Source: Chthoniobacter flavus
Lineage (GTDB): Bacteria > Verrucomicrobiota > Verrucomicrobiia > Chthoniobacterales > Chthoniobacteraceae
Direction of reading: 5' to 3'
DNA: 64,000 bases
NCBI GenBank assembly: GCA_945861435.1
Contig: CAMAUX010000002.1
Coordinates: 1 to 64,000 of the forward strand
Shown: piece after piece, positions 36,191-52,882 of the stretch
Numbering within the stretch: position 1 is the first letter of the stretch
Layout: the number at the start of each line of letters is the position of its first letter
The notes under the pieces: model-generated
Seen by the model: the letters and a program-made list of their open reading frames with translations, nothing else
Told to the model about the DNA's origin: nothing
The model's database searches: none
Position numbers and translations under genes: made by a program

Positions 36191-36276
36191 TTGCATTCGT
36201 TTTCCGCGCCCCTCTATCCTTTGCCCCTGTCCCCGGGTCGGGGTCTTGCATTCCGCCCCAGCGGATTTTGTATCCT
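36191..36276 (+). promoter_or_regulatory. Two tandem promoter-like repeats ahead of actA
   Basis: TTGCATTC is followed 17-18 bp later by TATCCT twice: TTGCAT 36191-36196 with TATCCT 36215-36220, and TTGCAT 36246-36251 with TATCCT 36271-36276. The spacing of 18 and 19 bp resembles sigma70 -35/-10 pairs, and the copies are about 55 bp apart. They lie between the CRP-like site and the ActA start at 36301. Either or both may start the operon transcript. Confidence 0.45.
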
Positions 36277-36300
36277 ACCCCACTAATTTCTAAACCACGC

Positions 36301-36975
36301 ATGGCGAACATCTTTCCGCGCGGGAGTAATTTTCTCCCTCTTAAAATCGCCTTCTGCCTTCTAGTTCTAGGTGGTGCAACCTCAACGGGTCTTTGGTACT
36401 ACTTCACAAATAAGTATACCAATGTGGGCTACCAGCCCACCCAGCCGGTTCCCTTCTCCCACGAGATTCACGTCAAGCAGGTCGGTATGGATTGCCGTTA
36501 TTGCCACAGCTTTGTGGAGGTTGCTGCTCACTCCAATATCCCGACAACCCAAGTCTGCATGAACTGCCATCAGCAGATTCAGAAAGACAACCCCAAGCTC
36601 CAAGCGGTCCGGGACTCATGGACGACTGGCCAACCAATCCAGTGGGTGCAGATTCACAAAACTCCAGACTACGTCTATTTCAATCACTCTGCCCACGTGA
36701 ACCGAGGGGTGTCCTGTGTGAGTTGCCATGGTAAGGTTAACGAGATGGCGGAGGTCTACCATGCAAAGCCGCTCTCCATGTCTTGGTGCCTGGACTGTCA
36801 TCGCAACCCGGAGGAGGCACTCCGTCCGCTCAATCAAATTACCAACCTCGACTGGGAGCCAAAGACTAAGGAGGGACAGTCCGTTGCCGACGCGCAGCGT
36901 GAACTGGGCTCCAAGCTCAAGGCCGACTGGGCCATTAATCCTCCCGACAAGAATTGTTTTGGCTGCCACCGCTAA
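36301..36975 (+). CDS. actA: Alternative Complex III subunit A, pentaheme cytochrome c
   Basis: A 224-aa membrane-anchored multiheme cytochrome that receives electrons within ACIII, a quinol:cytochrome c (or oxidase) oxidoreductase. There is one N-terminal helix (about 12-33). Five CxxCH sites follow, with Cys65, Cys86, Cys139, Cys163 and Cys219 as first cysteines. Extra His residues (FSHEIHVKQ, FNHSAHVNRG) can be sixth ligands. ATG 36301 starts the family MANIFP-type N-terminus. It is the first gene of the long respiratory operon. Confidence 0.93.
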   Translation: MANIFPRGSNFLPLKIAFCLLVLGGATSTGLWYYFTNKYTNVGYQPTQPVPFSHEIHVKQVGMDCRYCHSFVEVAAHSNIPTTQVCMNCHQQIQKDNPKLQAVRDSWTTGQPIQWVQIHKTPDYVYFNHSAHVNRGVSCVSCHGKVNEMAEVYHAKPLSMSWCLDCHRNPEEALRPLNQITNLDWEPKTKEGQSVADAQRELGSKLKADWAINPPDKNCFGCHR

Positions 36976-36987
36976 CCGCTAATTTCG

Positions 36988-39900
36988 ATGAGCAAACGCG
37001 TCTTCCACCATCCTCAGGATTCGGCCAGCGGCAAGAAGTATTGGCGCAGTGTCGGCCAACTCTCCAATACGCCGGAATTCCGGGTGTGGCTCGAAAGAGA
37101 GTTTCCTCAGGGGGCTTCGGAATTTGATGGGGGCGATGTTTCTCGTCGCAATTTCCTTCAGTTGATGGGGGCTTCCATGGCCCTTGCCGGACTTAGCTTT
37201 GCCGGATGTCGCCGACCGGAAAAGCATCTCGTTCCCTTCACGAGGGGGGTGGAGTGGTCGATTCCTGGCAAGGCTCTGTTTTTCGCGAGCGCGATGCCCT
37301 CGCGCTCCGGGGCTCTTCCTTTGGTTGTCACAACACATGACGGGCGCCCGACCAAGGTGGACGGTAATCCGCTCCATTCGTTGAGCAAGGGTGCTGCCGG
37401 AGTTTTTGCTCAGGCCTCCATCCTCGATCTTTACGATCCCGATCGCTCGAGGCGTTTCCTTAGTGGCGGCGAGCCGTCGAGTTCCGCTCAGTTTGAGAAG
37501 GCTCTCGATGGGATTATCGCCTCTCTCGGTGATGGTTCGTCGCTTGCATTGCTTCTTGAGCCTGGGGATTCTCCCACGCGCGAACGGTTGCGCGCGGAGA
37601 TTGTGGCTAAGTTTCCGAAGGCGATGTGGGCCACTTACGACCCAATAGCCTCGCCCGCTGGCGATATATTCCAGTCTGGGGTGCAGCCGGTTCCTGTGAT
37701 TTCTGCAGCCGATGTGATTATGTCGCTGGACTGCGACTTCCTCGGAAGTGATGTGGCGGGTGATCAGGCGAGGCAATTTGCAGCCCGCCGCAAGCCCGAG
37801 GCCCAGGCTGGGATGAACCGCCTCTATGTGGTGGAAAATCGTTTTACCCTGACCGGTGGAATGGCGGACCACCGACTCCGCGTTCAGGCGAGCAGGGTGG
37901 GGGCTTTCGCGACTGCGATTGCTCGTCAGGTGGCGGATTCCACAGGGGACGCAGTACTCGCTCAGATGCTTCAGGGCGTATCCATCGATCCTGTGGAGTT
38001 TCCTGCTGACTGGGTTCGTGAGGCCGCGGCTGATCTGATTGCTAACCGTGGCAGGAGTTTGGTGATTGCCGGTCATCGCCAACCCGTGGCAGTTCAAGGA
38101 TTGGTGGCTGGAATCAATTCGGCCTTGGGGAATCTCGGAAAGACGCTTGTCGGAAAACCTGCGCAATCGGCTCCTTCCGCCGGTATCGCTGATGTCGCCA
38201 AGGCAGCAGGGGAGGGGCGACTGAAGACCCTCATCTTGATTGGCGGTAACCCTGCCTATGATGCCCCTTCGGACTTGGGGTGGGCCAAACTTCAAAAGGA
38301 TTTTCGCGAAGAAAAGGGTGGTGTTGTGATTCGTTTGTCTTCTCAGGAGGATGAGACCTCGAGGCTCGCCACCTGGCATGCCCCGTTGGCTCACTATCTT
38401 GAGTCATGGTCTGATGCGCGCGCTTTTGATGGAAGTTATCTCTCCGTCCAGCCGATGATTCTTCCGCTCTTCGGTGGCTGGTCCGAAATTGACGTTCTTG
38501 CAAAGCTCGCAGGGCGCCAGAAGCCTGAGGGGCCCGAGTTGGTTCAGGAGACATTCCGTTCCACAGTAAAGCCTTCCGATTTCACCGAGGCCTGGGGTAA
38601 GTTTCTTCACGATGGGTTCGTCTCAAAGAGTAAGTCTCAGCAAACTTCTCTTTCTCTCAGCCCGTCTATCTCGGGTGTTGTGAGTGCGGGATTGAATGCG
38701 GTGCGGTCCACGGGATTTGAGGTTGTGGTGGTTGCTGATTCCAAGGTTCTCGACGGCCGTTATGCTAACAACGGCTGGCTCCAGGAGTTGCCCGACCCAG
38801 TGACCAAGGTTTCTTGGGATAATACAGCTCAGATTAGCCCTGCGAGCGCTAAGCAACTTGGCGTATCCAATGGCGACATGCTGAGGGTGGAGGCCTCTGG
38901 TCGCTCCTTGGAAATTCCAGCCTTCATCACCCCTGGCCACGCAGATAACTCTCTCACGGTGGCGCTTGGTTATGGGCGGGACTTCGATGGGCGGGTGGGC
39001 GGTAAGGGTGTCGGGTTTAACGCCTATCCTTTGCTGACTTCTTCAGCGCCCTACTTTTTGGTCGGAGCCTCCGTTTCGCCATCAGGAAGAAAGCACAAAC
39101 TGGTGGTGACTCAGGAGCATGGCGCGCTCGAAGGCCGGGGCGGGGACATTTTGCGCGAGGGGACCATCGAACAGTTCAAGGCGCAGCCAGATTTTGCTAA
39201 AAATCTCGGTCTCGACGCTCATGCGGAGTGGATTGAGAAGGACGGGCGGAAGACCGAGGTGGTCAACAGGTCGCTTTATTCACATCCCCCGCTTGATGAT
39301 CCGCATCAGTGGGGCATGGCGGTAGATCTTACTGCCTGCACCGGATGCTCTGCGTGCATGGTCGCCTGCCAGGCGGAAAATAACATTCCGATCGTTGGCA
39401 AGGAGCAGGTTGGCTACGGGCGTGAGATGCATTGGATCCGGACAGACAGGTACTTTGCTAGTGAGCATGATGAGGTGGCCGATCCCGAGATGATTTACCA
39501 ACCGATGCTCTGTCAGCATTGCGAAAATGCCCCGTGTGAGACCGTGTGTCCGGTGAATGCAACGGTACACAGTGAGGACGGCCTCAATGTAATGGCTTAC
39601 AACCGCTGCATTGGAACACGCTATTGTGCGAATAACTGCCCGTTTAAAGTAAGGCGCTTTAATTTTTTCGACTACAATCAGCGTCAGATTGAAGACGGTG
39701 GTCTTTACAAGTGGAACCTGACGTCTCCTAAGGGGACTCCTGAAACTATCAAGTTGCAGAAAAACCCGAATGTTACCGTTCGCATGCGGGGCGTAATGGA
39801 GAAGTGTACATTCTGCGTGCAGCGCATTCAGGAGGCAAAGATTGCCACGAAGGTGGCGCGCAGGGGAACAGGTAACGTGAAGATCGAGGCCGACGCCTTC

Positions 39901-40176
39901 ACTGTTGCGTGTGCTCAAGCATGTCCAAGCGATGCGATTACTTTCGGTGATATCAGCAACGAGAAGAGTTCCGTTTCTAAACTCCGCGCTGCTGAAAGGG
40001 GTTATCGTCTGCTCGAGTATCTCAATGTCGGCGCGCGTGTCTGGTATCTGGCACGTATACGAAATCCAAATCCTAGGATGCCGGACGCCCAGAAAGCTGG
40101 ATCCCACTCTCGCCCGTCCCATCACGGGGGCGGACACGAAACCGCGAAACCCAATCACTCCGGAGGCAACGCTTAA
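36988..40176 (+). CDS. actB: Alternative Complex III subunit B, fused molybdopterin-like/iron-sulfur protein
   Basis: A 1062-aa peripheral subunit. A Tat-type signal ([18 protein letters not shown]) occurs about 50 residues in, as usual for ActB. The large middle part resembles molybdopterin oxidoreductases but is expected to lack the cofactor. The C-terminal ferredoxin-like part holds four cysteine clusters, beginning [11 protein letters not shown] at residues 784-794, then [26 protein letters not shown] and CTFCVQ...CAQACP, enough for three or four Fe-S clusters. It links quinol oxidation at ActC/F to the hemes. It shares one base with actC. Confidence 0.95.
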
Positions 40177-41621
40177 TGTCTGAGTCCACTACCGCCGCAG
40201 CCGAAGTGAGCCTCTCCACACCACCTGAGTTGGCGCGTGTACCGTTGGTTCAGAACCAGCGTTCCATAGGATGGATCACGGACAAGGTTTCCAAGATTGT
40301 TGAGGAGCGCACCCCACGCTGGTGGTGGGTGGCGTTCCTAATATGTTCGCCCGTTGCTCTCATGGGTTTGCTGTGCATCGGCTATCAGATATCCAACGGC
40401 GTAGGCATCTGGGGTGAGAATAAGACGGTCGGATGGGCGTGGGACATTACCAACTTCGTTTTTTGGATCGGTATCGGGCATGCAGGGACATTGATCTCGG
40501 CAATCCTTTTCCTCACTCGTCAGAAGTGGCGCACGTCCATCAATCGCGCAGCAGAGGCAATGACCCTATTTGCGGTTGTTTGTGCCGGGATCTTCCCGGG
40601 AATCCATGTGGGGCGTGTTTGGATGGCATGGTTCTTGGCTCCTGTGCCCAACATGCAGGGCATCTGGCCGAACTTCCGTTCCCCTCTGCTTTGGGACGTT
40701 TTTGCCGTATCCACTTATTTCATCGTGTCTGTTCTGTTTTGGTATACTGGTTTGGTGCCTGATCTTGCGTCGCTCCGGGACAGGGCTAAGGGGCGTGTAG
40801 CGAGGTTCATTTACGGAGTATTCGCTCTGGGGTGGCGGGGGTCCAACAGGCAGTGGCGTCACTATGAAATGGCGTACTTGCTTCTAGCGGGCCTATCAAC
40901 ACCCCTCGTGCTTTCGGTACACTCGGTGGTGTCCTTTGACTTTGCGACGTCGATTCTTCCCGGGTGGCACACCACCATCTTCCCACCATATTTCGTTGCA
41001 GGGGCGATCTTCGGTGGGTTCGCCATGGTGCTCACTATCATGCTTCCCGCCCGCCTTCTTTATCCTCAGGTGGACGATCTGATCACTCGTCAACATGTTG
41101 ATAAGATGGCTAAGATCATCCTGCTCACGGGGAGTATCGTAGGGTACGCCTACCTTACCGAACTCTTCATTGCATGGTATGGAGCCAACCCATACGAAAA
41201 ATTTACGTTCTTCAATGCTCGCCTTGGACTGGAGGGTAAGGGGTGGTACGCGTGGTCCTACTACGTGATGATGTTTTGCAACGTGATTTCGCCGCAGTTG
41301 TTTTGGATTAAGTCGATGAGGACAAATTACGTGGCCGTGTTTACCGTCTGCATGTTTGTCAATGTGGGGATGTGGTTTGAGCGTTTCGTGATCATCGTCA
41401 CGTCTCTTGCTCAGGACTTCCTTCCTTCATCTTGGCGTCATTACTCCCCCTCCTGGGTCGAGGTGCTTACCTTCGTGGGGACCTTTGGAATCTTCCTCTC
41501 TTTGTTCCTGCTGTTCATGCGTTTCCTTCCCATGATTGCGATGTCTGAGGTCAAGATTGTGACACCGGAAGCTGATCCCCACCACACCCCGCACGGTCCG
41601 GGCGCTGTGGCCAATCATTAA
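40176..41621 (+). CDS. actC: Alternative Complex III subunit C, NrfD-like membrane protein
   Basis: A 481-aa polytopic protein of the NrfD/PsrC family with about ten helices, one of two quinol-binding membrane subunits of ACIII. Diagnostic stretches are [31 protein letters not shown] and [13 protein letters not shown], together with the [20 protein letters not shown] loop. The start overlaps the actB stop (TAATG), indicating tight coupling. No redox cofactor is expected in this subunit. Confidence 0.94.
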
Positions 41622-41631
41622 ACTACTGCTC

Positions 41632-42177
41632 ATGGCTGAATACCGAAAAGTCTATGGTCTGGGAGCGGAGTTCGACAGCGCCGCCTCCCTTATGTCCGCA
41701 GCTGAAACGGTGCGCGACAAAAAGTTCACTCACTGGGATGTCCACACTCCATTCCCTGTTCATGGAATGGATGGAGCGATGGGTCTGGGTAAGTCTTGGT
41801 TGTCTGCTCCCGTCCTAATTGGAGGGGCCACCGGAACGCTTATTGCGGCACTGCTGACGTTTGTCCCTTCTTGGGGAATCTACCCAATGATCGTCAATGG
41901 AAAACCCTTTGACTGGAGGGTTCTTCCTGCTTTTTTCCCAATCTTCTTCGAATTGACCATTCTGTTCGCCGCGTTCAGCACAGTTTTTTCGCTGTTAATC
42001 ATGAACCAACTGCCCAAATGGTATCACCCCGTCTTCAACTGGGATCAGTTTAAGAAGGCGACCGATGATGGGTTCTTTATGGTCATCGAGGCGCGTGATC
42101 CTAACTTCTCCGAATCGAGAACACGCGAATTTCTAGAAAGCATTGGCGGCAAGAACGTGACCCTCATCCACGACTAA
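41632..42177 (+). CDS. actD: Alternative Complex III subunit D (DUF3341)
   Basis: A 181-aa protein with two membrane helices (about 60-80 and 100-120) between soluble ends. The N-terminal block EFDSAASLMSAAETVRDKKF, then HWDVHTPFPVHGMDGAMGL, is characteristic of the DUF3341 subunit. The C-terminus contains the family pattern FFMVIEARDPNFSESRTREF. It has a structural role in ACIII and no cofactor. Confidence 0.93.
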   Translation: MAEYRKVYGLGAEFDSAASLMSAAETVRDKKFTHWDVHTPFPVHGMDGAMGLGKSWLSAPVLIGGATGTLIAALLTFVPSWGIYPMIVNGKPFDWRVLPAFFPIFFELTILFAAFSTVFSLLIMNQLPKWYHPVFNWDQFKKATDDGFFMVIEARDPNFSESRTREFLESIGGKNVTLIHD

Positions 42178-42186
42178 CACATCGTC

Positions 42187-42879
42187 ATGCTCCGATATTT
42201 TTTCGCGATTTTTCTTTTGGGTTCCGCCGCAGTACTCTCTCTGGCGGGTTTTCGTGGACAGAAAGGAACCGAGCCTCCAATCGAGGTGTTCCCAGACATG
42301 GATCACCAGCCAAAGTTTCAGCCCCAGCATGTCAGTCATTTCTTCGCCGATGGAAGGGCCGCGCGGAATCCGGTTCAGGGAACAGTTCCCATGGGCTTCA
42401 ATCTCGACGGAAGATACCTTCAGGTGCCTGCTCGCAATTCCGGGTTTGGCGCTGGGTTCACGAATAGGCCCGACTATTCCGGGACTGGCCGTATTGGGGA
42501 GGTTTACGGCGATGGGATTCCGTCTGGAATGCTGAAGCAGGCTGATCGACTGATTGAACGGGGTGAGGAGCGTTACAACATCAATTGTGCTGTATGTCAC
42601 GGTAGGACCGGTGGTGGGAACGGAGTCGTCCAGCAGATAGGGTCATGGGCCTCCGTGGCTAATCTGCTAGATGACAGAATTCGTTCCATGCCGGACGGGC
42701 AGATATTTAGTACCATAACGAACGGAAAAAACACCATGGGTGCGTATGGTCCCCAGATCTGCGTGGAAGATCGTTGGGCGATCGTGGCGTATATTAGATC
42801 TCTCCAACGTAGTCAGTCCGGTATCGTTTCAGACCTCACGCCGGACCAACAGATTCAGCTTCAGAACGAAAAGAAGTAA
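42187..42879 (+). CDS. actE: Alternative Complex III subunit E, monoheme cytochrome c
   Basis: A 230-aa exported or lipid-anchored cytochrome with an N-terminal hydrophobic segment (5-20) and one heme site CAVCHG (Cys134-His138). The family features MDHQPKFQPQ and RNPVQGTVPMG precede the heme domain. It would carry electrons from ActA out of ACIII toward the oxidase. Its stop overlaps the actF start (TAATG). Confidence 0.93.
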   Translation: MLRYFFAIFLLGSAAVLSLAGFRGQKGTEPPIEVFPDMDHQPKFQPQHVSHFFADGRAARNPVQGTVPMGFNLDGRYLQVPARNSGFGAGFTNRPDYSGTGRIGEVYGDGIPSGMLKQADRLIERGEERYNINCAVCHGRTGGGNGVVQQIGSWASVANLLDDRIRSMPDGQIFSTITNGKNTMGAYGPQICVEDRWAIVAYIRSLQRSQSGIVSDLTPDQQIQLQNEKK

Positions 42880-44081
42880 TGAGCCACCCACACAACATCA
42901 CTCCTCCGACTGCAGAGAGGTTCGAGCCGAGGGATGCAGGATCAATTCCAATTATCTGCCTAGGGGTTGGCGTCATCGGAATAGGCCTGAGTATCTTAGG
43001 GCTTTTCTCAGATCAGTGGCGGGCGCAGATGGCTCATTCTTGGCTGTTCGGCTTTACCTACTTCTTCACAATCTGCATGGGCTGTCTGTTTTGGAACTGC
43101 CTCCACCATGCGACGGATTCCGACTGGTCGGTGGTGGTGCGCCGTCAGCTGGAGAACATCGCCAGTCTGATTCCGTACTTTGCGATTTTCTTCATTCCCG
43201 TCCTTGCGTCAGCAGGTGTTCTCTACAAGTGGTGGAGCATGGATCCCGCCTCTGAGCCGCTGTTGGCTGCCAAGCAGCCGTATCTATCTCAGCCCTTCTT
43301 CATCGCGCGTGCTATTGGTTACTTTGTGCTGGCTGGCTGGGTCGCATACTCTTTGAAAAGGCGTTCCATATCCCAGGATGCTGACGGATCCGCTGCTCAC
43401 AGCTTAGTGATGCGCAAGTTCGGTATCGGTGGAATTCCGGTTGTGGCGATAGCGATCACTTTTGCTGCCTTCGACTGGCTCATGGGCCTCGATTACAAGT
43501 GGTTTTCCACAATGTGGGGAGTCTACCTCTTCGCGGGCGCCGCCGGCAGCTCGATGTCTCTCTTGGTTCTAATCGTGAGCGCTCTCAAAAGGCGTGGCTA
43601 TCTCAGCGTTGTGAACCTCGAGCATTACCACACGATGGGAAAGTTCATGTTAGCTTTTACGATTTTCTGGGCTTACATCGGGTTCAGCCAGTACATGCTT
43701 ATTTGGTATGCTAATATTCCTGAGGAGACGGTGTACTACCAAATAAGAAATACGGGGTCCTGGTGGTACCTCAGCACTTTCCTTGTGGTTGGTCGTTTCT
43801 TTCTTCCTTTCCCTGTGCTTCTTCTGCAGTTCACTAAAAAGAAGCCCAAGTTACTTTGCGCTGTGGCGATCTGGATCCTGTTCATGCAACTCGTCGATGT
43901 GTATGTGATTGTCTTGCCGGCACTTCACCCATCAGGGATCGCGATCAGTCCTTTCGACCTGTCTTCGCTGCTAGGTATTGGCGGAATTCTGGGATGGTTA
44001 TTCTTCCGCAACCTCAAAAATAGCCCTCTTTACCCCATGCGCGACCCTAGGCTGGGTGCTTCGCTCAAACTCACCAACTGA
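42879..44081 (+). CDS. actF: Alternative Complex III subunit F, second NrfD-like membrane protein
   Basis: A 400-aa membrane protein of about ten helices, paralogous to ActC. Recognisable parts are WLFGFTYFFTICMGCLFWNC, the DWLMGLDYKWFSTMWGVYLF segment and HYHTMGKFMLAFTIFWAYIG-like helices leading to FSQYMLIWYANIPEE. That last motif is the usual 'ISFSQYMLIWYANIPEET' signature of ActF. It completes the six-gene ACIII set. Confidence 0.94.
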   Translation: MSHPHNITPPTAERFEPRDAGSIPIICLGVGVIGIGLSILGLFSDQWRAQMAHSWLFGFTYFFTICMGCLFWNCLHHATDSDWSVVVRRQLENIASLIPYFAIFFIPVLASAGVLYKWWSMDPASEPLLAAKQPYLSQPFFIARAIGYFVLAGWVAYSLKRRSISQDADGSAAHSLVMRKFGIGGIPVVAIAITFAAFDWLMGLDYKWFSTMWGVYLFAGAAGSSMSLLVLIVSALKRRGYLSVVNLEHYHTMGKFMLAFTIFWAYIGFSQYMLIWYANIPEETVYYQIRNTGSWWYLSTFLVVGRFFLPFPVLLLQFTKKKPKLLCAVAIWILFMQLVDVYVIVLPALHPSGIAISPFDLSSLLGIGGILGWLFFRNLKNSPLYPMRDPRLGASLKLTN

Positions 44082-44090
44082 TAAGAATCG

Positions 44091-44585
44091 ATGGACGAGA
44101 AACATTCATCCCCGCTAGGGGGCTTTCCCAGTCTTCTTTGGGCTCTTTTTTTCCTTGTAGCGGTCGCAATCGGGGTGGTCAGCATGGTTCGTCGGCAGCC
44201 TGCAGGAGTAACGGTCGAGGGTCAAAGGGCTGCTAATCGCGTCCAGAAACGAGAAGAGTTGGAGAAGGCCGACGTTGAGAAACTCACAACTCCTGCCTGG
44301 GTCGACAAGTCGAAACAGACTGTTCGAGTACCTCTTGACCGCGCGAAGAAAATCGTTGCCGCGGAACTGGTCGCAAAAAAAGTGGGGCCGAGTTCTGTGA
44401 AAGTCGAGTTGCCTCCGCCAACCTCCCCTGCCTCTGCCTCATCCGAGCCATCTCCTCTCCGGCTTCCTTCTGCGCCCTACGGTGCAGATTTGCTCCAGTT
44501 TGAAGTTTTCCGACCTGCTGGCGCAACCGGCGGAAGACCCCAAAATACCCAGCCTCCGGCCCAACCCTCAACGACCGCCCAATGA
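44091..44585 (+). CDS. Single-helix Pro/Ser-rich membrane protein within the respiratory operon
   Basis: A 164-aa protein of unknown function. One hydrophobic helix (about 14-32, LLWALFFLVAVAIGVVSMV) is followed by a charged segment (about 45-100, QKREELEKADVEKLTTPAWV) and a Pro/Ala/Ser-rich tail. The middle part around VDKSKQTVRVPLDRAKKIV resembles a short motif seen in small proteins beside cytochrome oxidase genes, but I cannot name a family. It overlaps the following gene by 4 bases, so it is surely translated with it; a role in assembly is inference. Confidence 0.7.
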   Translation: MDEKHSSPLGGFPSLLWALFFLVAVAIGVVSMVRRQPAGVTVEGQRAANRVQKREELEKADVEKLTTPAWVDKSKQTVRVPLDRAKKIVAAELVAKKVGPSSVKVELPPPTSPASASSEPSPLRLPSAPYGADLLQFEVFRPAGATGGRPQNTQPPAQPSTTAQ

Positions 44586-46078
44586 CCGCTGCTGCTGCCG
44601 CCATAGACTCGACAAGTGGACAAATGCCCCGGCCCGAATGGTCGGCGAGTCCGCAGGATGAAAAGGGTGTGCTTACGGAACGTGCCCGGATTGACAAAGC
44701 GGCTTCGGGGCCTGTCCTCGTCTTTTTCTCAACCGCCGTTGCGTGGCTCATTTTGAGCACCATTCTCGGGTTGGTTATTTCCATAAAGCATAACGCCCCC
44801 TCGTTCCTCGCCGACCTTGCTCCACTAACCTACGGGCGTCTAGTTCCTGCGTGCCGACTATGCCTCACCTATGGCTGGGCAAGCCTAGCCGGAATGGGAG
44901 TTGGAATTTGGATATTATCCAGACTATGCAGAGTACCTTTGCGCCTCCCCGGGGTTCTGATTTTTGGGGCAATTCTTTGGAATCTAGGGCTTGTTCTTGG
45001 AGTCGGAGCCGTGCTCTCCGGCAAGATGTCGACTTTGGACTCCTTGGAAATGCCCATTGGGCCGTCGGTCGTTCTGTTCTCGGGCTATCTCATCATCGGT
45101 GGTTGGGGGGCGGTGCTGTATCGTTCTCGGATTGGTGGGGCCGCGTATGTTTCAGTATGGTATATTCTCGGTGCCTTTTTTTGGTTTTCTTGGTACTTCG
45201 GCGTATCGCAGTTTCTCACTTCAATTTGCGACGTCCAGGGCGTGATGCAAAACGTCGTCGGCGCTTGGTACCATCAGGGTGTTTCGTTGTTGTGGTTGGG
45301 CGCGCTTGGTCTTGGAACTGCCTACTATTTGATTCCCAAGGTCATCAATCGACCAATCTACAGTTCCAACCTCGCATCCGTAGGATTTTGGACTTTCGTT
45401 GCCTTCGCTGGTTTGACCGGGCTGGCACGTCTTAGCGGCGGCCCCGTTCCCGCGTGGATTGTAAGCGTGGGTATCGCTGCGAATCTTCTGATGCTTGTCC
45501 CGTTGGCGACGGTTCTAACCAATCTCCTCTCTACAATCCGAAGCGGGGCAGGGGCGGTCTACTTTTCTCCTACTCTGCGCTTCACCACATTCGGTGTTGT
45601 ATCATTCGGGGTTTCAGGCGTGATTGCGTTGATGAGTTCGCTCAGAAGTGTCGATAGCGCGGTGCACTTCACTCAATTCGCCCCTGGGCAGGAGCACCTT
45701 TTCCTGTATTGCTTCTACTCAATGGTGATGTTTGGGGCGATCTACTACATCATGCCTCGTCTTGTAGGATGTGAGTGGCTCTCCTCCTCCCTGATTCGCC
45801 TTCACTTCTATGGTGCGGCATACGGCGGCGGATTCTTTTCGGGGTTGTTGCTCTTGGCAGGCGTTGCCACAGGGCTTTCGCTCCGGGACCCGGAGGCTTC
45901 ATTCCTTCAGGCGGTTCAGATCAGTCAATCCTACTATTTGGGACAGACCTTTGCGGTCTGCATGATCGCCGTCGGTCATCTGTTCTTTTTGCTGCACTTC
46001 CTTCTGATGCTCCTGCGCATCGGTCAACCGGGGGCGGATCCGACCTTATTTTCCAACCCAGGGGAGGAAAAACACTAA
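44582..46078 (+). CDS. CcoN-like heme-copper oxidase subunit I homolog lacking most cofactor ligands
   Basis: A 498-aa protein with about 12-13 helices, clearly related to cbb3 oxidase subunit I (TYGRLVP, PKVINRPIYSSNLASVGFW, FGAIYYIMPRL). By manual alignment the ligands are mostly gone. The low-spin heme His after 'GRLxP' is Cys91. The CuB pair 'HH' in helix VII is replaced around residues 280-284 (GLARL). The heme b3 His is Gln370. Only His372 (second low-spin position) and perhaps His231 (in AWYHQGV) remain. It should not reduce O2. It precedes a CcoO-like gene with an intact heme site. Confidence 0.85.
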   Translation: MTAAAAAIDSTSGQMPRPEWSASPQDEKGVLTERARIDKAASGPVLVFFSTAVAWLILSTILGLVISIKHNAPSFLADLAPLTYGRLVPACRLCLTYGWASLAGMGVGIWILSRLCRVPLRLPGVLIFGAILWNLGLVLGVGAVLSGKMSTLDSLEMPIGPSVVLFSGYLIIGGWGAVLYRSRIGGAAYVSVWYILGAFFWFSWYFGVSQFLTSICDVQGVMQNVVGAWYHQGVSLLWLGALGLGTAYYLIPKVINRPIYSSNLASVGFWTFVAFAGLTGLARLSGGPVPAWIVSVGIAANLLMLVPLATVLTNLLSTIRSGAGAVYFSPTLRFTTFGVVSFGVSGVIALMSSLRSVDSAVHFTQFAPGQEHLFLYCFYSMVMFGAIYYIMPRLVGCEWLSSSLIRLHFYGAAYGGGFFSGLLLLAGVATGLSLRDPEASFLQAVQISQSYYLGQTFAVCMIAVGHLFFLLHFLLMLLRIGQPGADPTLFSNPGEEKH

Positions 46079-46722
46079 TGAATCCGAAACCCCGCCTATT
46101 TACCGGCATTGTAGCTTGCTTCGCATCATCGGCTGTGGTGGCCCTTGTCGTTCCTAGCATTCAATTGAGCGGATTGGACTCTCACTTTGATCAAGACGCC
46201 AACCAAGTTTATCCGGTTAAGAATGATCAGGGTCGGGACGTTTACATTGCTGAGGGCTGTATTCAGTGCCATTCCCAGCAGGTTCGGGACCCCCAGAACG
46301 GACTCGATATCGAGCGTGGCTGGGGCGTGAGGAGGACTGTTGCACGCGATCATGTGCTGGAGTCTGCCCCGCTTCTTGGAAACTCCCGGATGGGGCCGGA
46401 TTTGTCCAATGTCGGATCGTCGGACTGGCGAAACGAACCTAAGGAGGATCCTCGGCGACCAAAGCGTAGGGATTCAGTTTGGCACTTGCTGCACCTTTAC
46501 CAACCGGACTCCCTCGTGAAGGAGTCGTCGATGCCGCCGTATAGATACTTGTTTGAGAGGCAGCAGATCTCCGGTGAGCGGTCGTCTGTGGCTTTGAATG
46601 TGCCCACAGAGGCTGGTTATCAGATCGTGCCCAAGCCCGAGGCGCTCCGGTTGGTTAAGTACCTCACGTCGCTTGATAGAAGTTATCCTCTGCAGGAGGC
46701 GAAAGCTCCCGCTGCAAAATAG
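46078..46722 (+). CDS. CcoO-like monoheme cytochrome c (cbb3 subunit II type)
   Basis: A 214-aa protein with an N-terminal membrane helix (about 8-28) and the CcoO-type heme block GRDVYIAEGCIQCHSQQVR (Cys61-His65). It continues with GNSRMGPDLSNVG and the likely Met ligand in ESSMPPYRYLF. All features of a working heme c are kept, unlike its CcoN-like partner. The start shares a base with the upstream stop (TAATG). It probably relays electrons between ACIII and downstream cytochromes. Confidence 0.88.
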   Translation: MNPKPRLFTGIVACFASSAVVALVVPSIQLSGLDSHFDQDANQVYPVKNDQGRDVYIAEGCIQCHSQQVRDPQNGLDIERGWGVRRTVARDHVLESAPLLGNSRMGPDLSNVGSSDWRNEPKEDPRRPKRRDSVWHLLHLYQPDSLVKESSMPPYRYLFERQQISGERSSVALNVPTEAGYQIVPKPEALRLVKYLTSLDRSYPLQEAKAPAAK

Positions 46723-46733
46723 AATTTCACAGA

Positions 46734-47894
46734 ATGAACGAAGGTCCTGAACGCATCGATTACCGGGAAGCTTCCGACGCCCCCGAAGTTCACTGCGCTG
46801 CGCAGCGAGAGCACCGCGACCCGGTCGCTGAAATCACGCCAATGCCGTTGTGGCTCACTGCCGTTTGTGGGGTCGCCTTGTGTTGGGCGGGTGCCTATTT
46901 GGGAGTATTTCATGGGGGTTTTTCCGGGAAAATCTATAACGAGTATGAGAGCTCGCCGTCGGCTTTATTTCCACTTCCGGCAAAGGAGGGTGCCAGAGTG
47001 GATGGCTCTGCGGTTGCGCAGACCTTGGCTCAGCTGGGGAAAACAGTATACGCGCAGTGCCAGCCTTGCCACCAGTCAACTGGCCTTGGCGTACCAGGGC
47101 AGTTCCCTCCTTTGGCTGGAGCGGAGCTCGTGGTCGGGGGGGAAAAGCGCTTGATAGCCATCCTTTTAAAGGGGCTTCAGGGGCCAATAACCGTAAGTGG
47201 CAAACCATTCAATGGAGCGATGCCCGCTTGGGAGAAAGTCCTCACCGACAAGAAGATAGCCGCAGTTGCTAGCTTCGTGAGGGCTGAATGGGGTAACGGC
47301 GCACCCGAGATTTCCGAATCGAAGGTGGCCGCCGCCCGCAAGGAGTTGGAATCGCAGTCCGCGCCCTATACGGAATCCCTGCTTTTGCAGATTCCTGCGG
47401 ACGCATCGTTGTCCGAAGGGGCGGTAGCGCCTTCCTCCCCCGCGCCGGTCCCTGATGTGCGGCCTTCCGGAGCACCCACGGCTTCTGCTTCGGGTCAGTC
47501 CGCAGACACCGAGCAGATCCAAATGGCGGCTGGAAAGCAGGTATATTCAACTATCTGCATGGCCTGTCATCAGCCGACGGGAGCCGGGCTTCCCCCAGTG
47601 TTCCCTCCACTGATCGGCACGGAATATGTGACCGGTTCACCGGAACGTCTGGCCGCGATGATTCTGAAAGGGAACGCCGGTCCCTTAACCGTCGACGGGA
47701 AGCTCTATAACAACGTCATGCCGGGGCAGGAGTCGGTTCTGACCGACGAAAAGATAGCTGCAGTGATGACCTATGTGAGGGCATCGTTCGGCAACAAGGC
47801 GCCATCGGTGTCCGCAGAAGTCGTTACAGCAGCACGCAAGAAATTTGCTGATCGGAAGACGCCGTGGACCGAGGCGGAACTCAAGTCGTTTTAA
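46734..47894 (+). CDS. Membrane-anchored diheme cytochrome c (CcoP position)
   Basis: A 386-aa protein with one helix (about 38-59) and two class-I cytochrome c domains with CQPCH (Cys109-His113) and CMACH (Cys275-His279). A Pro/Ala/Ser linker (about 220-260) joins them. Both domains follow the same pattern: GK.VY..C..CHQ.TG.G.P..FPPL, then LKG..GP..V.GK..N..MP, then VLTD.KIAAV. Domain 2 is very close to the next gene. By position it replaces CcoP, but its domains are of the oxidase-linked 'MPG' type rather than classical CcoP. Confidence 0.87.
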   Translation: MNEGPERIDYREASDAPEVHCAAQREHRDPVAEITPMPLWLTAVCGVALCWAGAYLGVFHGGFSGKIYNEYESSPSALFPLPAKEGARVDGSAVAQTLAQLGKTVYAQCQPCHQSTGLGVPGQFPPLAGAELVVGGEKRLIAILLKGLQGPITVSGKPFNGAMPAWEKVLTDKKIAAVASFVRAEWGNGAPEISESKVAAARKELESQSAPYTESLLLQIPADASLSEGAVAPSSPAPVPDVRPSGAPTASASGQSADTEQIQMAAGKQVYSTICMACHQPTGAGLPPVFPPLIGTEYVTGSPERLAAMILKGNAGPLTVDGKLYNNVMPGQESVLTDEKIAAVMTYVRASFGNKAPSVSAEVVTAARKKFADRKTPWTEAELKSF

Positions 47895-48365
47895 TTCCAT
47901 CGAATGCATTCACACATGACAAAGATCATCTCCTCCGCCTTGTTTTTGGTTTTCATCAGGATGGCCTCGGCGCAAGAGCCTTCCGACCAATCAGTTCTTG
48001 GGAAGCAGGTGTACATGACCGTGTGTTTCGCCTGCCATCAGCCGACGGGGCTTGGGCTGCCGCCTGTGTTTCCACCGATCGCGAGTTCCGAGTACGTCGT
48101 CGGCTCGCCGGAAAGGCTAGCGGCAATGATATTGAAGGGGAATGCAGGACCGATGACCGTGGACGGCAAACTTTACAACAACGTCATGCCCGGACAGGAG
48201 GCGATGTTGACGGACGATAAAATTGCGGCTGTGATGACTTACGTTCGCTCCAACTTCAACAACAAGGCTCCTGCTGTAGATGCGAGCGTTGTGGCCGCAG
48301 CCCGGAAGAAGTTCGAGGAACGAAAGACTCCCTGGACAGAGGCCGAGTTGAAGGCTTGGAAGGAG
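47034..48365 (+). repeat. Triplicated cytochrome c module (two domains plus next gene)
   Basis: Three copies of one module of about 115-120 residues lie in a row: 47034-47380 (domain 1 of the diheme protein), 47532-47891 (domain 2) and 48000-48365 (the monoheme gene). Copies 2 and 3 agree over long runs, for example RLAAMILKGNAGP, NNVMPGQE and the C-terminal KTPWTEAELK, and their DNA is alike too. Copy 1 is more diverged. The pattern suggests domain duplication, then a recent gene-domain duplication. Confidence 0.8.
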
Positions 48366-48368
48366 TAA
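47904..48368 (+). CDS. Periplasmic monoheme cytochrome c
   Basis: A 154-aa exported cytochrome. A signal peptide (to about ASAQ, residue 24; ATG 47916 is an alternative start) is followed by one heme site CFACH (Cys41-His45), a Met-containing NVMPGQE segment as probable axial ligand region, and a helical end. It is a near copy of the second domain of the upstream diheme protein. It may be the soluble carrier between ACIII and the CuA site, or a bound oxidase subunit. Confidence 0.87.
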   Translation: MHSHMTKIISSALFLVFIRMASAQEPSDQSVLGKQVYMTVCFACHQPTGLGLPPVFPPIASSEYVVGSPERLAAMILKGNAGPMTVDGKLYNNVMPGQEAMLTDDKIAAVMTYVRSNFNNKAPAVDASVVAAARKKFEERKTPWTEAELKAWKE

Positions 48369-48417: not shown

Positions 48418-50277
48418 ATGGTTTCTCACTCTGCCGATGCTGGTCATCACGAGCATCATGACGACGATCATCATGAGCTTGGATTCTGGAGGAAGTACGT
48501 TTTCTCGACGGATCACAAGGTGATTGGGATCCAGTATGGGATCACCGGGTTGCTATTCCTACTGTTTGGTTTTGCCCTGATGCTTGTGATGCGATGGCAG
48601 CTTGCGCATCCCGGGACGCCAATGCCTTACATCGGCAGTTTCCTCGGCAGCCTGCCCGTGATCAAGGATCACTTCCCTGGCGGGGTCATGTCCGCAGACG
48701 GTTACAATGAGTTTGGAGCGATGCACGGGACCATCATGGTTTTCTTTGGTATCGTACCCGTGGCATTCGCTGCATTCGGGAACTTCGCAGTTCCTCTCCA
48801 GATTGGTGCGCCGGACATGACATTTCCGCGTATTAACATGGGTAGCTACTGGTGTTTCTTTATTAGCTGCATCTTCATGCTAGTGAGCTTCTTGGTGCCC
48901 GGCGGGGCGGCGAAGTCGGGTTGGACTTCTTATCCACCGCTCTCGGGGATTGCCGACTCCGGGGTTGGATTTCATCAGTTCTTCAACGGGCAGACTCTCT
49001 GGCTGACGGGCATGATATTCAATATCACGGCGTCGTTGATGGGCTCTGTGAATTTTATTGCCACCATCATCCAGCTTCGTGCCCCCGGGATGACGTGGAT
49101 GAGGATGCCGTTCTTTGTCTGGACCCAGTTTGTCACCGCCTTCCTCCTGCTTCTGGCATTTCCGCCGTTGGAGGCTGCGGGGATCTTTCAGTTCATGGAC
49201 CGCGTATTTGGCACGAGCTTCTTTATGCCCACGGGTCTTGTGGTTGGGCAGCAGCTCACCCACTGGTCTGGTGGCGGGAGCCCGCTCCTATGGCAGCATC
49301 TCTTCTGGTTTCTTGCGCATCCTGAGGTTTACGTGCTGATCCTGCCGGGGATTGGCATTATTGCCGAGGTTGTAGCCAACAATACGCGGAAGCCAATATA
49401 CGGCTACAAGGCGATGGTGGGTGCGATCTTCGTGCTGGGTTTTCTTTCATTCATTGTCTGGGCGCATCACATGTACATGACTGGTATGGGCGCCAAAGTG
49501 GCCGCATTTTTCCAGACGACGACGATCATGATTTCAGTGCCTTCTGTGATTCTTATCACGGCGCTTCTGTTGTCGCTCTGGGGCGGGTCAATCCGCTTCA
49601 CGGTACCGATGATGTTTGCAACGGCTTTCCTGCCGATGTTCGGCATTGGGGGGCTTACGGGTATTCCCCTGGCCTTCAACGCTGTGGACATGTACCTCCA
49701 CGACACGTACTACATCATAGGTCACTTCCACTACATCGTGGCCCCAGGTACTATCTTTGCGATCTTTGCTGGGGTGTATTATTGGTTTCCCAAGGCGGCC
49801 GGGCGTTCCATGAATGATTTCCTCGGGCGTGTTCACTTTTGGGGATCGCTCATTTCGATCAACGGGATTTTCTTTCCCATGTTTTTGCAGGGCATGGCTG
49901 GTGTCCATCGGCGCTGGTACGATGGTGGCGGCGCATCGCTGGACCAGTTGACCTACCAGCTTGCCGGCCCAGTGCTCCATTGGAACAAGTTCATGAGCTA
50001 TTCGGCCTTTCTTCTCGCTCTTGCGCAGCTTCCGTTCATTTTCAATTTTTTCTACAGCATCTTTGCAGGCAAGAGGGTCGACAGGAACCCGTGGCAGTCC
50101 ACCACGCTGGAATGGGATGCGCCTTCGCCTCCTCCGCATGGAAATTTTGACCGGCCGGTGGCTGTTTACCGTGGCCCGTATGAGTACAGCGTGCCTGGCG
50201 CTCAGAGCGACTTCACCCCCCAGTCTGAGGTTCCCGAAGGCAAGGGCAATCAAGCGGCGACTGTATCAGCTCACTAG
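48418..50277 (+). CDS. ctaD: Cytochrome c oxidase subunit I (A-family heme-copper oxidase)
   Basis: A 619-aa catalytic subunit. All metal ligands are present: low-spin heme His103 (AMHGTIM) and His437, heme a3 His435 (GHFHY), CuB His301 (AHPEVY) with Tyr305, and His350-His351 (WAHHMY). D-channel Asp133 and Glu303 are kept. The K-channel lysine position reads Leu379 (SVPSVILIT where 'AVPTGIKVF' is usual). The N-terminus is His/Asp-rich (HHEHHDDDHHE, 10-20). It follows the cytochrome genes and heads the oxidase part of the operon. Confidence 0.96.
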   Translation: MVSHSADAGHHEHHDDDHHELGFWRKYVFSTDHKVIGIQYGITGLLFLLFGFALMLVMRWQLAHPGTPMPYIGSFLGSLPVIKDHFPGGVMSADGYNEFGAMHGTIMVFFGIVPVAFAAFGNFAVPLQIGAPDMTFPRINMGSYWCFFISCIFMLVSFLVPGGAAKSGWTSYPPLSGIADSGVGFHQFFNGQTLWLTGMIFNITASLMGSVNFIATIIQLRAPGMTWMRMPFFVWTQFVTAFLLLLAFPPLEAAGIFQFMDRVFGTSFFMPTGLVVGQQLTHWSGGGSPLLWQHLFWFLAHPEVYVLILPGIGIIAEVVANNTRKPIYGYKAMVGAIFVLGFLSFIVWAHHMYMTGMGAKVAAFFQTTTIMISVPSVILITALLLSLWGGSIRFTVPMMFATAFLPMFGIGGLTGIPLAFNAVDMYLHDTYYIIGHFHYIVAPGTIFAIFAGVYYWFPKAAGRSMNDFLGRVHFWGSLISINGIFFPMFLQGMAGVHRRWYDGGGASLDQLTYQLAGPVLHWNKFMSYSAFLLALAQLPFIFNFFYSIFAGKRVDRNPWQSTTLEWDAPSPPPHGNFDRPVAVYRGPYEYSVPGAQSDFTPQSEVPEGKGNQAATVSAH

Positions 50278-50288
50278 TTAAGTCTCAC

Positions 50289-51257
50289 ATGCAAATTCCC
50301 TACGAAGTTTCATCGCGTCCGGACACTGGTCTGTACAACGCCAAGCTCGGCATTTGGTTGTTTCTGGCGTCCGAGGTCATGCTGTTCGGTGGGTTGTTTT
50401 CCGGATATATCTTCCTCCGACTTGGGGCAGAGCCCGGTTACTGGCCGCACGGTCTTCTGAATGTGCCAGTGGGGACCATGAACACGGCGGTCCTAATCCT
50501 TTCTTCCGTGACGGTGGTGCTGGCGTGGGCAGCCCTGAAGATGAGGAATTGGTCTCAGTATCGGCTTTATATGCTGATAACGATCGTTTGTGGGGTGGTG
50601 TTCCTCGGGGTAAAGCTCAGCTACGAGTATCCTCAGAAGTTCACCCACTTCGGCGTGTTCATCCGGAAGGATTCTCTCGTCAAGTATGAGGCTTATCTTG
50701 GGAACGATTTTCTTAAGTCACGTGGGCTGGAGCCTCGGGTGGAGATTTCCGGACATCTGCTGGATGCTCCGAAGGGGTCGGAGTATGAAGGAGTCGCCAA
50801 ACGGAACGCAGAGCACTTCACGCACGTGCTGCACGAGGAGGGAGTTGGCGGGCATGGCGGGGGGCCAGTGGTTCAGACGGAAGCTGCCGATGACTTTGTG
50901 ATTCAGTTGGATCCCGCGAACGCAAGGCCGACCGATCCGACGAATGAGCATCCCAGCTTTCTTCCGAAGAAGCAGACCATGATGACTGCGGTGGTGAAGA
51001 GGGAGGATGTGGAGAGCGCAGGTATGTTTGTGCCGGGGCACAGCCCCTACTTCGCGATTTACTTCACCATCACCGGTCTTCACGGGTTGCACGTGCTTGG
51101 AGGGGTAATCGTGTTTGCGTATTTCTTCTTCTTTGGTGGGAAGCTTTACAAACGAAATCCCGAACACTTTGCCAACCGGGTTGAGGTGGCTGGCTTATTC
51201 TGGCACTTTGTCGACCTCGTCTGGATTTTTGTGTTTCCGCTCTTTTACCTGCTGTAA
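50289..51257 (+). CDS. ctaE: Cytochrome c oxidase subunit III with large hydrophilic insert
   Basis: A 322-aa subunit III homolog. The first half has the usual LGIWLFLASEVMLFGGLFSGY helix and GTMNTAVLILSS. The second half has FTITGLHGLHVLGGV and VEVAGLFWHFVDLVWIFVFPLFYLL, in that order. Between helices, residues about 112-245 form a soluble insert, rich in His/Gly/Glu and without a recognised motif (HVLHEEGVGGHGGG). Typical subunit III is about 200-260 aa. It begins 11 bases after ctaD. Confidence 0.93.
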   Translation: MQIPYEVSSRPDTGLYNAKLGIWLFLASEVMLFGGLFSGYIFLRLGAEPGYWPHGLLNVPVGTMNTAVLILSSVTVVLAWAALKMRNWSQYRLYMLITIVCGVVFLGVKLSYEYPQKFTHFGVFIRKDSLVKYEAYLGNDFLKSRGLEPRVEISGHLLDAPKGSEYEGVAKRNAEHFTHVLHEEGVGGHGGGPVVQTEAADDFVIQLDPANARPTDPTNEHPSFLPKKQTMMTAVVKREDVESAGMFVPGHSPYFAIYFTITGLHGLHVLGGVIVFAYFFFFGGKLYKRNPEHFANRVEVAGLFWHFVDLVWIFVFPLFYLL

Positions 51258-51281: not shown

Positions 51282-51641
51282 ATGAGTGACACGCATAGCC
51301 ACCCTTCCATGCCAGCGGCGTCCCACGGCCACGCGGGCGCACATGAGATGCACCTGAAGTTGTATTGGGGGATTGGTGGAGTGCTGATCGCGCTTACAGG
51401 CGTCACGGTTGCGCTCAGTTACATCGATTTCGGCTCGAGAGGGCTGAACATCTTAATTGGCATGCTACTTGCCACCTTCAAGGTTTGTCTGGTTGGTGCC
51501 ATTTTCATGCACTTGAAGGGGGAGAAGGCCACAATTTGGCGTTTCCTGTACTTCACGGCGTTTTTTGTTGCGGGTCTTTTCCTTCTGACACTGTTGGCTT
51601 GGGTGGATCCAATCTTTGGGACGAACCATAACATGCATTAG
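51282..51641 (+). CDS. ctaF: Cytochrome c oxidase subunit IV-like small membrane protein
   Basis: A 119-aa protein with three hydrophobic helices of the prokaryotic subunit IV type: VLIALTGVTVALSYIDF, GMLLATFKVCLVGAIFMHL and YFTAFFVAGLFLLTLLAW. The 'FMHLKGEK' and late 'DPIFGTNHN' motifs are family-typical. The first 24 residues are His-rich (HSHPSMPAASHGHAGAHEMH), echoing the ctaD N-terminus. It has a stabilising role in the oxidase. Confidence 0.88.
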   Translation: MSDTHSHPSMPAASHGHAGAHEMHLKLYWGIGGVLIALTGVTVALSYIDFGSRGLNILIGMLLATFKVCLVGAIFMHLKGEKATIWRFLYFTAFFVAGLFLLTLLAWVDPIFGTNHNMH

Positions 51642-52123: not shown

Positions 52124-52882
52124 ATGCTAAACAAACTTCTAGGGATTGTTCCTGATGCTTCGGAGCATGGATATCTGGTGGATCACATGCTGGAGTTCTG
52201 CCACTGGTTCATGCTCCTTCTGTTCGTGGGTTGGATCGCCTACTTCCTGTACGCGATTGTGAGGTTCCACAGGTCCCGCAACCCGCGTGCGAGTTATCAC
52301 GGGGTCACCGGTCACTTATCCACGCATCTGGAGTTCACCGTGGTCATTGTGGAGGCGGTGCTGCTTTTGGGTTTCGGGCTTCCGCTGTGGGGGAAGCGAG
52401 TTACGGAGGAGTCTTTTCCTGACAAGGCGGAGGCATTGAGGATCCACGCTGTTGGCGAGCAGTTTGGATGGAACTTTCATTACCCGGGCGCGGACGGGGT
52501 TTTCGGGCGGCAGAGTGTCTTTCTGGTGAGTGGGAATAATCCGCTGGGGATTGATTGGTCGGATCCGGCAGCGGCAGATGACATCGTTTCCAAGAACGAG
52601 ATGCATCTGGTCAATTATCGGCCGACGGTTGTCGAGATCACCTCGAAGGACGTGATTCACAGTTTTGCGTTACACAACATGCGGATCACCCAAGATGCGA
52701 TGCCCGGCAGCCGGGTTCCCATGTGGTTCCGGCCGAAGCGCAATGGCACCTATGAAATCGTTTGCGCTCAGTTGTGCGGAGCTGGGCATTTTGCGATGAA
52801 GGCTTCGATGGTGGTGGAGGAAGTGAAGGACTTCGATTCTTGGTACAAGGACGCGATGGCATTGCTGCACCCGGCGAAGTAG
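52124..52882 (+). CDS. ctaC: Cytochrome c oxidase subunit II (CuA)
   Basis: A 252-aa subunit with two N-terminal helices (about 27-46 and 70-88) and a cupredoxin domain. The CuA ligands are complete: His179 (DVIHSF), Cys214 and Cys218 (CAQLC), His222 and Met225 (GHFAM). The electron-entry segment GEQFGWNFHYPG is present. No fused cytochrome c domain is seen, so a separate cytochrome must donate. Here it comes after subunits I, III and IV rather than first. Confidence 0.95.
   Translation: MLNKLLGIVPDASEHGYLVDHMLEFCHWFMLLLFVGWIAYFLYAIVRFHRSRNPRASYHGVTGHLSTHLEFTVVIVEAVLLLGFGLPLWGKRVTEESFPDKAEALRIHAVGEQFGWNFHYPGADGVFGRQSVFLVSGNNPLGIDWSDPAAADDIVSKNEMHLVNYRPTVVEITSKDVIHSFALHNMRITQDAMPGSRVPMWFRPKRNGTYEIVCAQLCGAGHFAMKASMVVEEVKDFDSWYKDAMALLHPAK

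Follow-up and report, generated by a model that had tools for sequence, protein, structure and literature searches.

The transfer of electrons from Alternative Complex III (ACIII) to a terminal oxidase has been described in two forms: in R. marinus, the acceptor of the ACIII electrons is a cytochrome c domain that forms part of the oxidase subunit CtaC, and in F. johnsoniae an extra cytochrome c domain on ActA replaces the CtaC-fused domain (PMC5928083). A C-type oxidase located beside ACIII in verrucomicrobial methanotrophs and Opitutaceae was described by Refojo 2010, as cited in PMC8498564, and the ACIII-adjacent cbb3 oxidase of Kam1 has been treated as a working enzyme and tied to oxygen affinity (PMC6688271). 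A standard survey of heme-copper oxidases discarded ligand-less sequences on entry (PMC3084760). The proximity of ACIII and a C-type oxidase in these groups is already known; as far as the literature was searched, no report was found of a ligand-less heme-copper subunit or of ligand loss in ACIII-linked CcoN. Here the ACIII operon was analyzed within a stretch of 64,000 nucleotides from Chthoniobacter flavus, hereafter referred to as the window.

The ACIII operon of the window and its CcoN homolog

All the genes of the operon are located on the plus strand. The first is actA (36268-36975), encoding the ACIII pentaheme cytochrome c of 235 residues with five CXXCH motifs and no extra cytochrome c domain, as identified with orthologs, followed by actB (36988-40176; molybdoenzyme-like/Fe-S subunit, from sequence and orthologs), actC (40176-41621; NrfD-type membrane subunit, PF03916, E 7e-21), actD (41632-42177; from the order of orthologs), actE (42187-42879; monoheme cytochrome c with a Pfam match and one CXXCH), and actF (42879-44081; membrane subunit without Pfam match, recognized as a class-wide ortholog). 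The small protein of 44091-44585 has no match in Pfam or NCBIfam and belongs to no assigned family; many relatives have its gene at the same place, after actF and before ccoN, and in the window it is ATGA-coupled to ccoN. Downstream of the ccoN homolog (44582-46078) are the genes for a CcoO-like membrane-anchored monoheme cytochrome c (46078-46722; FixO PF02433, E 1e-20), a diheme CcoP-like cytochrome c (46734-47894; Pfam, NCBIfam, and CXXCH motifs), and a monoheme cytochrome c (47904-48368; sequence and Pfam). The sequence of the last closely repeats the C-terminal domain of the diheme protein, which suggests a duplication within 46734-48368. The aa3-type oxidase follows, with CtaD as subunit I (48418-50277; TIGR02891, E 4e-169), in which the ligands H103, H301, H350/H351, H436, and H438 are present by motif, CtaE as subunit III (50289-51257; Pfam and NCBIfam), CtaF-like subunit IV (51282-51641; from the order of orthologs), and CtaC as subunit II (52124-52882), which contains no CXXCH and thus no cytochrome c domain. 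In the genome of the window (96% complete), searches detected no COX1 protein besides CtaD and the CcoN homolog of the operon, and no cytochrome bd, which leaves, by exclusion, the aa3 of the operon as the sole oxidase of the heme-copper or bd type detected in this genome.

The ccoN homolog is an uninterrupted reading frame for 498 amino acid residues, coupled upstream to the small gene by an ATGA overlap and downstream to ccoO by a 1-base TAATG overlap, in agreement with the preliminary description of an intact frame coupled on both sides. The CcoO-like cytochrome with intact heme site that had been placed after it is also present, and its start is the ATG at 46078 instead of the mechanical ORF start at 45775. 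The 498-residue protein matches Pfam COX1 (PF00115) with E 4.4e-44 over residues 45-458, which is the full core, and the solved relatives ranking best are all CcoN (9g6b and 3mk7). Against the NCBIfam ccoN model TIGR00780 it scores 90.6 bits and does not pass the curated cut-off of 583. The genes adjoining it give the FixO and cytochrome c matches that are expected of cbb3 partners. The nitric oxide reductase NorB would call for six ligand His as in the oxidases, of which the protein has one, and its match to NorB is weak and local (E 0.007). Structure prediction of the monomer gave a poor model (pLDDT 42).

Ligand positions were read from the alignment to P. stutzeri CcoN, using its numbering for the reference and that of the 498-residue protein for the query; the assignment of each His to low-spin heme, heme b3, or CuB is that established for CcoN. 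Among the six ligand His of a C-type (cbb3) CcoN, the second low-spin ligand H347 alone is retained, as H372. The first low-spin column H60 is C91, the CuB ligand column H207 is Q232, the CuB pair H257/H258 is A282/R283, the heme b3 ligand column H345 is Q370, and the cross-linked Tyr251 of helix VII is A276. The alignment of Cys91 and Gln370 with heme ligands, the absence of the helix VII His-His pair from residues 280-284 (GLARL), and the retention of His372 had all been proposed beforehand and were reproduced; His231, offered as a possible remaining ligand, is out of register by one residue from the CuB column. In an alignment-free count, the protein contains eight His (positions 70, 231, 362, 372, 408, 466, 472, and 498), and H231 is the only one between residues 71 and 361 and likewise the only one in helices VI-VII. 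Irrespective of any alignment, one His in these helices cannot make up a displaced CuB site of three His, and the presence of six ligand His at shifted positions, by which the preliminary description was to be judged, is excluded. As read from its residues, the protein is a homolog of CcoN (cbb3 subunit I), from which five of the six ligand His and the catalytic Tyr are gone.

Distribution of intact and ligand-less copies

A total of 32 among 40 genomes of the same family gave a match, and none of the 28 copies that could be read has the active site, indicating that the ligand loss in the window is not due to chance. In a phylum-wide draw of 388 genomes, 93 members of the class showed a strong ActF match, and 92 of these 93, by manual count, also carry an orthologous CcoN. 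In every operon read, CcoN and CcoO are linked to actABCDEF, the conserved linkage that is expected of an ACIII operon member, and the CXXCH of CcoO is retained in 41 of 41 operons. With G329 left unread, the ligand state was scored for 92 CcoN from the class: 28 keep all six ligands and Tyr, and 64 have lost the active site. The preliminary description would have been contradicted if homologs at the same locus mostly retained the ligands; the outcome was mixed, as none does so in the family of the window and 28 of 92 over the class keep all six, which means that a real oxidase has lost its ligands repeatedly. The ligand-less CcoN is not an oddity of a single genome and is found class-wide. 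The helix-VII Tyr follows the same division, being present in 41 of 41 intact rows and in one of 56 lost rows.

The intact ACIII-linked CcoN has the appearance of a real oxidase, with its six ligands and Tyr, and in G185, a genome of 1.3 Mb with no cytochrome bd, it is the only COX1 protein. Each of the lost-site genomes checked has at least one further COX1 protein. The ACIII operons read outside the class contain no CcoN and lead into a caa3-type cluster. In several lineages, ligand-less copies are also found in ACIII operons without adjoining aa3 genes.

Some copies depart from these two states. L034 and L035 (family f2, order-level relatives) represent an intermediate, in which both low-spin His are kept and the CuB and b3 ligands are lost. 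Two more branches of CcoN homologs (L104-L110 and L111-L113) have all the ligands and a CcoO-like neighbor, with no ACIII genes detected. In the pmo-bearing genome G047 (L133), the ACIII operon is intact except that the interval from the small ORF to ctaE contains neither ccoN nor ccoO, cytochrome c, or ctaD. One or two in-frame stops, due to either sequencing error or decay, are present in the lost-site homologs L009 and L061 and in the copies of G161 and G385. The graded series of intact copies, copies with the low-spin pair only, and copies with all ligands lost provides a natural experiment on the conversion of a respiratory enzyme into a scaffold.

Since the regain of six ligands is implausible, the intact state was taken as ancestral. 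On the ActB+ActC tree of 41 operons, at least nine irreversible losses are required, on branches with 95% support, and this count holds provided that the genes of the operon have been inherited together. A single loss was considered from the CcoN tree, in which nearly all the lost copies group together and two changes are needed, and was set aside, because long branches meet in this grouping and the operon tree requires many more losses. When the CcoN data were constrained to place lost copies with their operon relatives, two implied groupings were not rejected (p-AU 0.13 and 0.77, the latter with the better likelihood), and long-branch attraction is therefore taken to account for the clustering of lost copies. 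The shape of the CcoO tree is in line with this, with weak support. L042, which is absent from the Act tree, groups with intact relatives on the CcoN tree and would count as a further loss.

The ACIII-adjacent CcoN of the pmo-bearing family f10 (L103, L114, L115, and L116) is ligand-less and has no active site, and a search of six pmo-bearing genomes detected no ccoN above the curated cut-off. These genomes are presumed, from pmo and synteny, to be of the SolV or Kam1 type. The pmo-bearing verrucomicrobial methanotrophs credited with an ACIII-adjacent "cbb3 oxidase" carry, in the genomes read, the ligand-less version. In L116, about 7 kb of extra sequence lies between actF and ccoN. All the copies tested clear the Pfam COX1 cut-off, and annotation labels ligand-less copies as oxygen reductases; given that such sequences pass this cut-off and were discarded by the heme-copper oxidase survey, the proteins have probably been miscalled and overlooked.

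Selection on the lost copies and their possible role

The lost copies are under purifying selection, the dN/dS ratio between close pairs being about 0.05-0.25. At about 60 positions the same residue is found in at least 90% of the ACIII-linked intact copies and at least 75% of the lost copies, and 21 positions common to the intact and true cbb3 copies are relaxed in the lost copies, including the six ligand columns, R57, E122, and Y251. Judging from this pattern, the lost copies keep the fold and not the cofactor chemistry. The class-wide conservation, the low dN/dS, and the retained fold-core signature lend good support to the earlier proposal of a maintained non-catalytic homolog.

On balance, the ACIII-linked cbb3 oxidase has probably become a largely cofactor-free membrane scaffold for the heme-bearing CcoO and cytochrome c, through which electrons would reach aa3. 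According to this scheme, genes of a cbb3-like oxidase would have been built into the ACIII operon of the class, in the order actABCDEF, small ORF, ccoN, ccoO, and cytochrome c. In some lineages the ACIII-linked CcoN would still act as a full oxidase, and in many others, including that of the window, an aa3-type oxidase would take over the oxygen chemistry. The CcoN homolog would then lose copper, heme b3, and, in the window, the low-spin heme pair as well, and its fold would stay. We infer that the ligand-less CcoN docks on the membrane arm of ACIII and holds the CcoO cytochrome, and that CcoO and the diheme and monoheme cytochromes c may link ActA/ActE with the CuA subunit of aa3 in electron transfer.

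This scaffold reading agrees with the distribution of CtaC types. CtaC is without CXXCH or cytochrome c domain in all 25 ACIII operons having CcoN/CcoO and CtaC, and carries a fused cytochrome c domain in all seven ACIII operons of the phylum without CcoN, a contrast that is confounded by phylogeny (class versus non-class) and hence represents few independent events. With a CtaC lacking the c domain and an ActA of only five hemes, the natural bridge would be CcoO and the cytochromes encoded after it, kept in place by the ligand-less CcoN. The genome G047 is an unexplained exception, as ActF and a c-less CtaC are kept there despite the joint loss of ctaD and the module of ccoN, ccoO, and cytochrome c. 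The adaptor between ACIII and aa3 suggested in the preliminary description is plausible and is supported by the CtaC distribution, but is too narrow, because ligand-less copies without adjoining aa3 indicate that the constant partner is more likely ACIII/CcoO than aa3 specifically.

It is unlikely that the protein serves in the assembly or maturation of CcoO, aa3, or ACIII instead of being a structural subunit: its conservation in the operon without cofactor ligands is compatible with such a role, but the descent from a stoichiometric oxidase subunit and the tight 1-base coupling with CcoO fit a structural subunit better. Slightly less likely still is a subunit that binds one low-spin heme through unusual axial ligands (H372 with Tyr or Cys at 91) and joins in electron transfer. 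In the lost set, all 16 rows with Tyr or Cys at column 60 have His at column 347, which is never the case for Phe, Ala, or Ser at the former column, and L034 and L035 keep both low-spin His without an active site, all as a retained heme would predict; however, the pair is missing in g2 of the same family (Ala/Ser with Ser/Ala/Thr), where the operon is the same in all other respects, R57, which is conserved in intact copies, is lost, and the co-variation is phylogenetically clustered and could be a packing contact. It is improbable that the protein has acquired a new function unrelated to bridging, such as a quinone/lipid site, oxygen/redox sensing, or a proton path. The replacement residues are conserved within sublineages, and Arg or Lys occupies the CuB His258 column in 58 of 91 lost copies (257 or 258 in 70 of 91), as might be expected of a new site, but the length is that of the plain CcoN core and nearly all the positions conserved in lost copies are conserved in intact ones as well. 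A decaying pseudogene of a redundant oxidase is very improbable, because, despite the many losses of ligands and the in-frame stop in a few homologs, the vast majority of homologs have an open frame, as in the window, decay is contradicted by a dN/dS well below 1, and the gene is retained across families. An alignment error concealing an ordinary oxidase or NO reductase with ligands at shifted positions is hardly conceivable, since H231 does lie next to the CuB column but the His count refutes it, the catalytic Tyr is absent, and the flanking motifs of the displayed relatives align gap-free.

Comparison with known systems

The CcoN homolog of the window belongs to the same COX1 fold family as P. 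stutzeri cbb3 CcoN (3mk7/5djq) and the solved CcoNs 9g6b and 8smr, with a near whole-length match, and as in cbb3 operons it is followed by CcoO-like and CcoP-like cytochromes. It differs from the solved CcoNs in having one of the six ligands only and no catalytic Tyr, and in a score far below the cut-off of the ccoN model. The "C-type oxidase" of methanotrophs and Opitutaceae occupies the same operon position, and the pmo-bearing relatives carry the CcoN family of the window; this oxidase is treated as working in PMC8498564 and PMC6688271, whereas the copies L103 and L114-L116 have no active site. The R. marinus ACIII-caa3 supercomplex (PMC5928083) likewise couples an ACIII operon to an A-type oxidase, but the CtaC of the window has no fused c domain and the CcoN/CcoO module is present instead. 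In the F. johnsoniae ACIII-aa3 supercomplex (PMC5928083, PMC8361435), aa3 is encoded together with ACIII, as in the window, and is docked directly on ACIII; the ActA of the window differs from that of F. johnsoniae in having five hemes only and no extra c domain. We tentatively propose, in a reading that could about as easily prove wrong, that the catalytic subunit of an oxidase may have been converted into a cofactor-free structural subunit of ACIII at least nine times in one class, which would add a third mode of ACIII-oxidase wiring to the c domain on CtaC and that on ActA.
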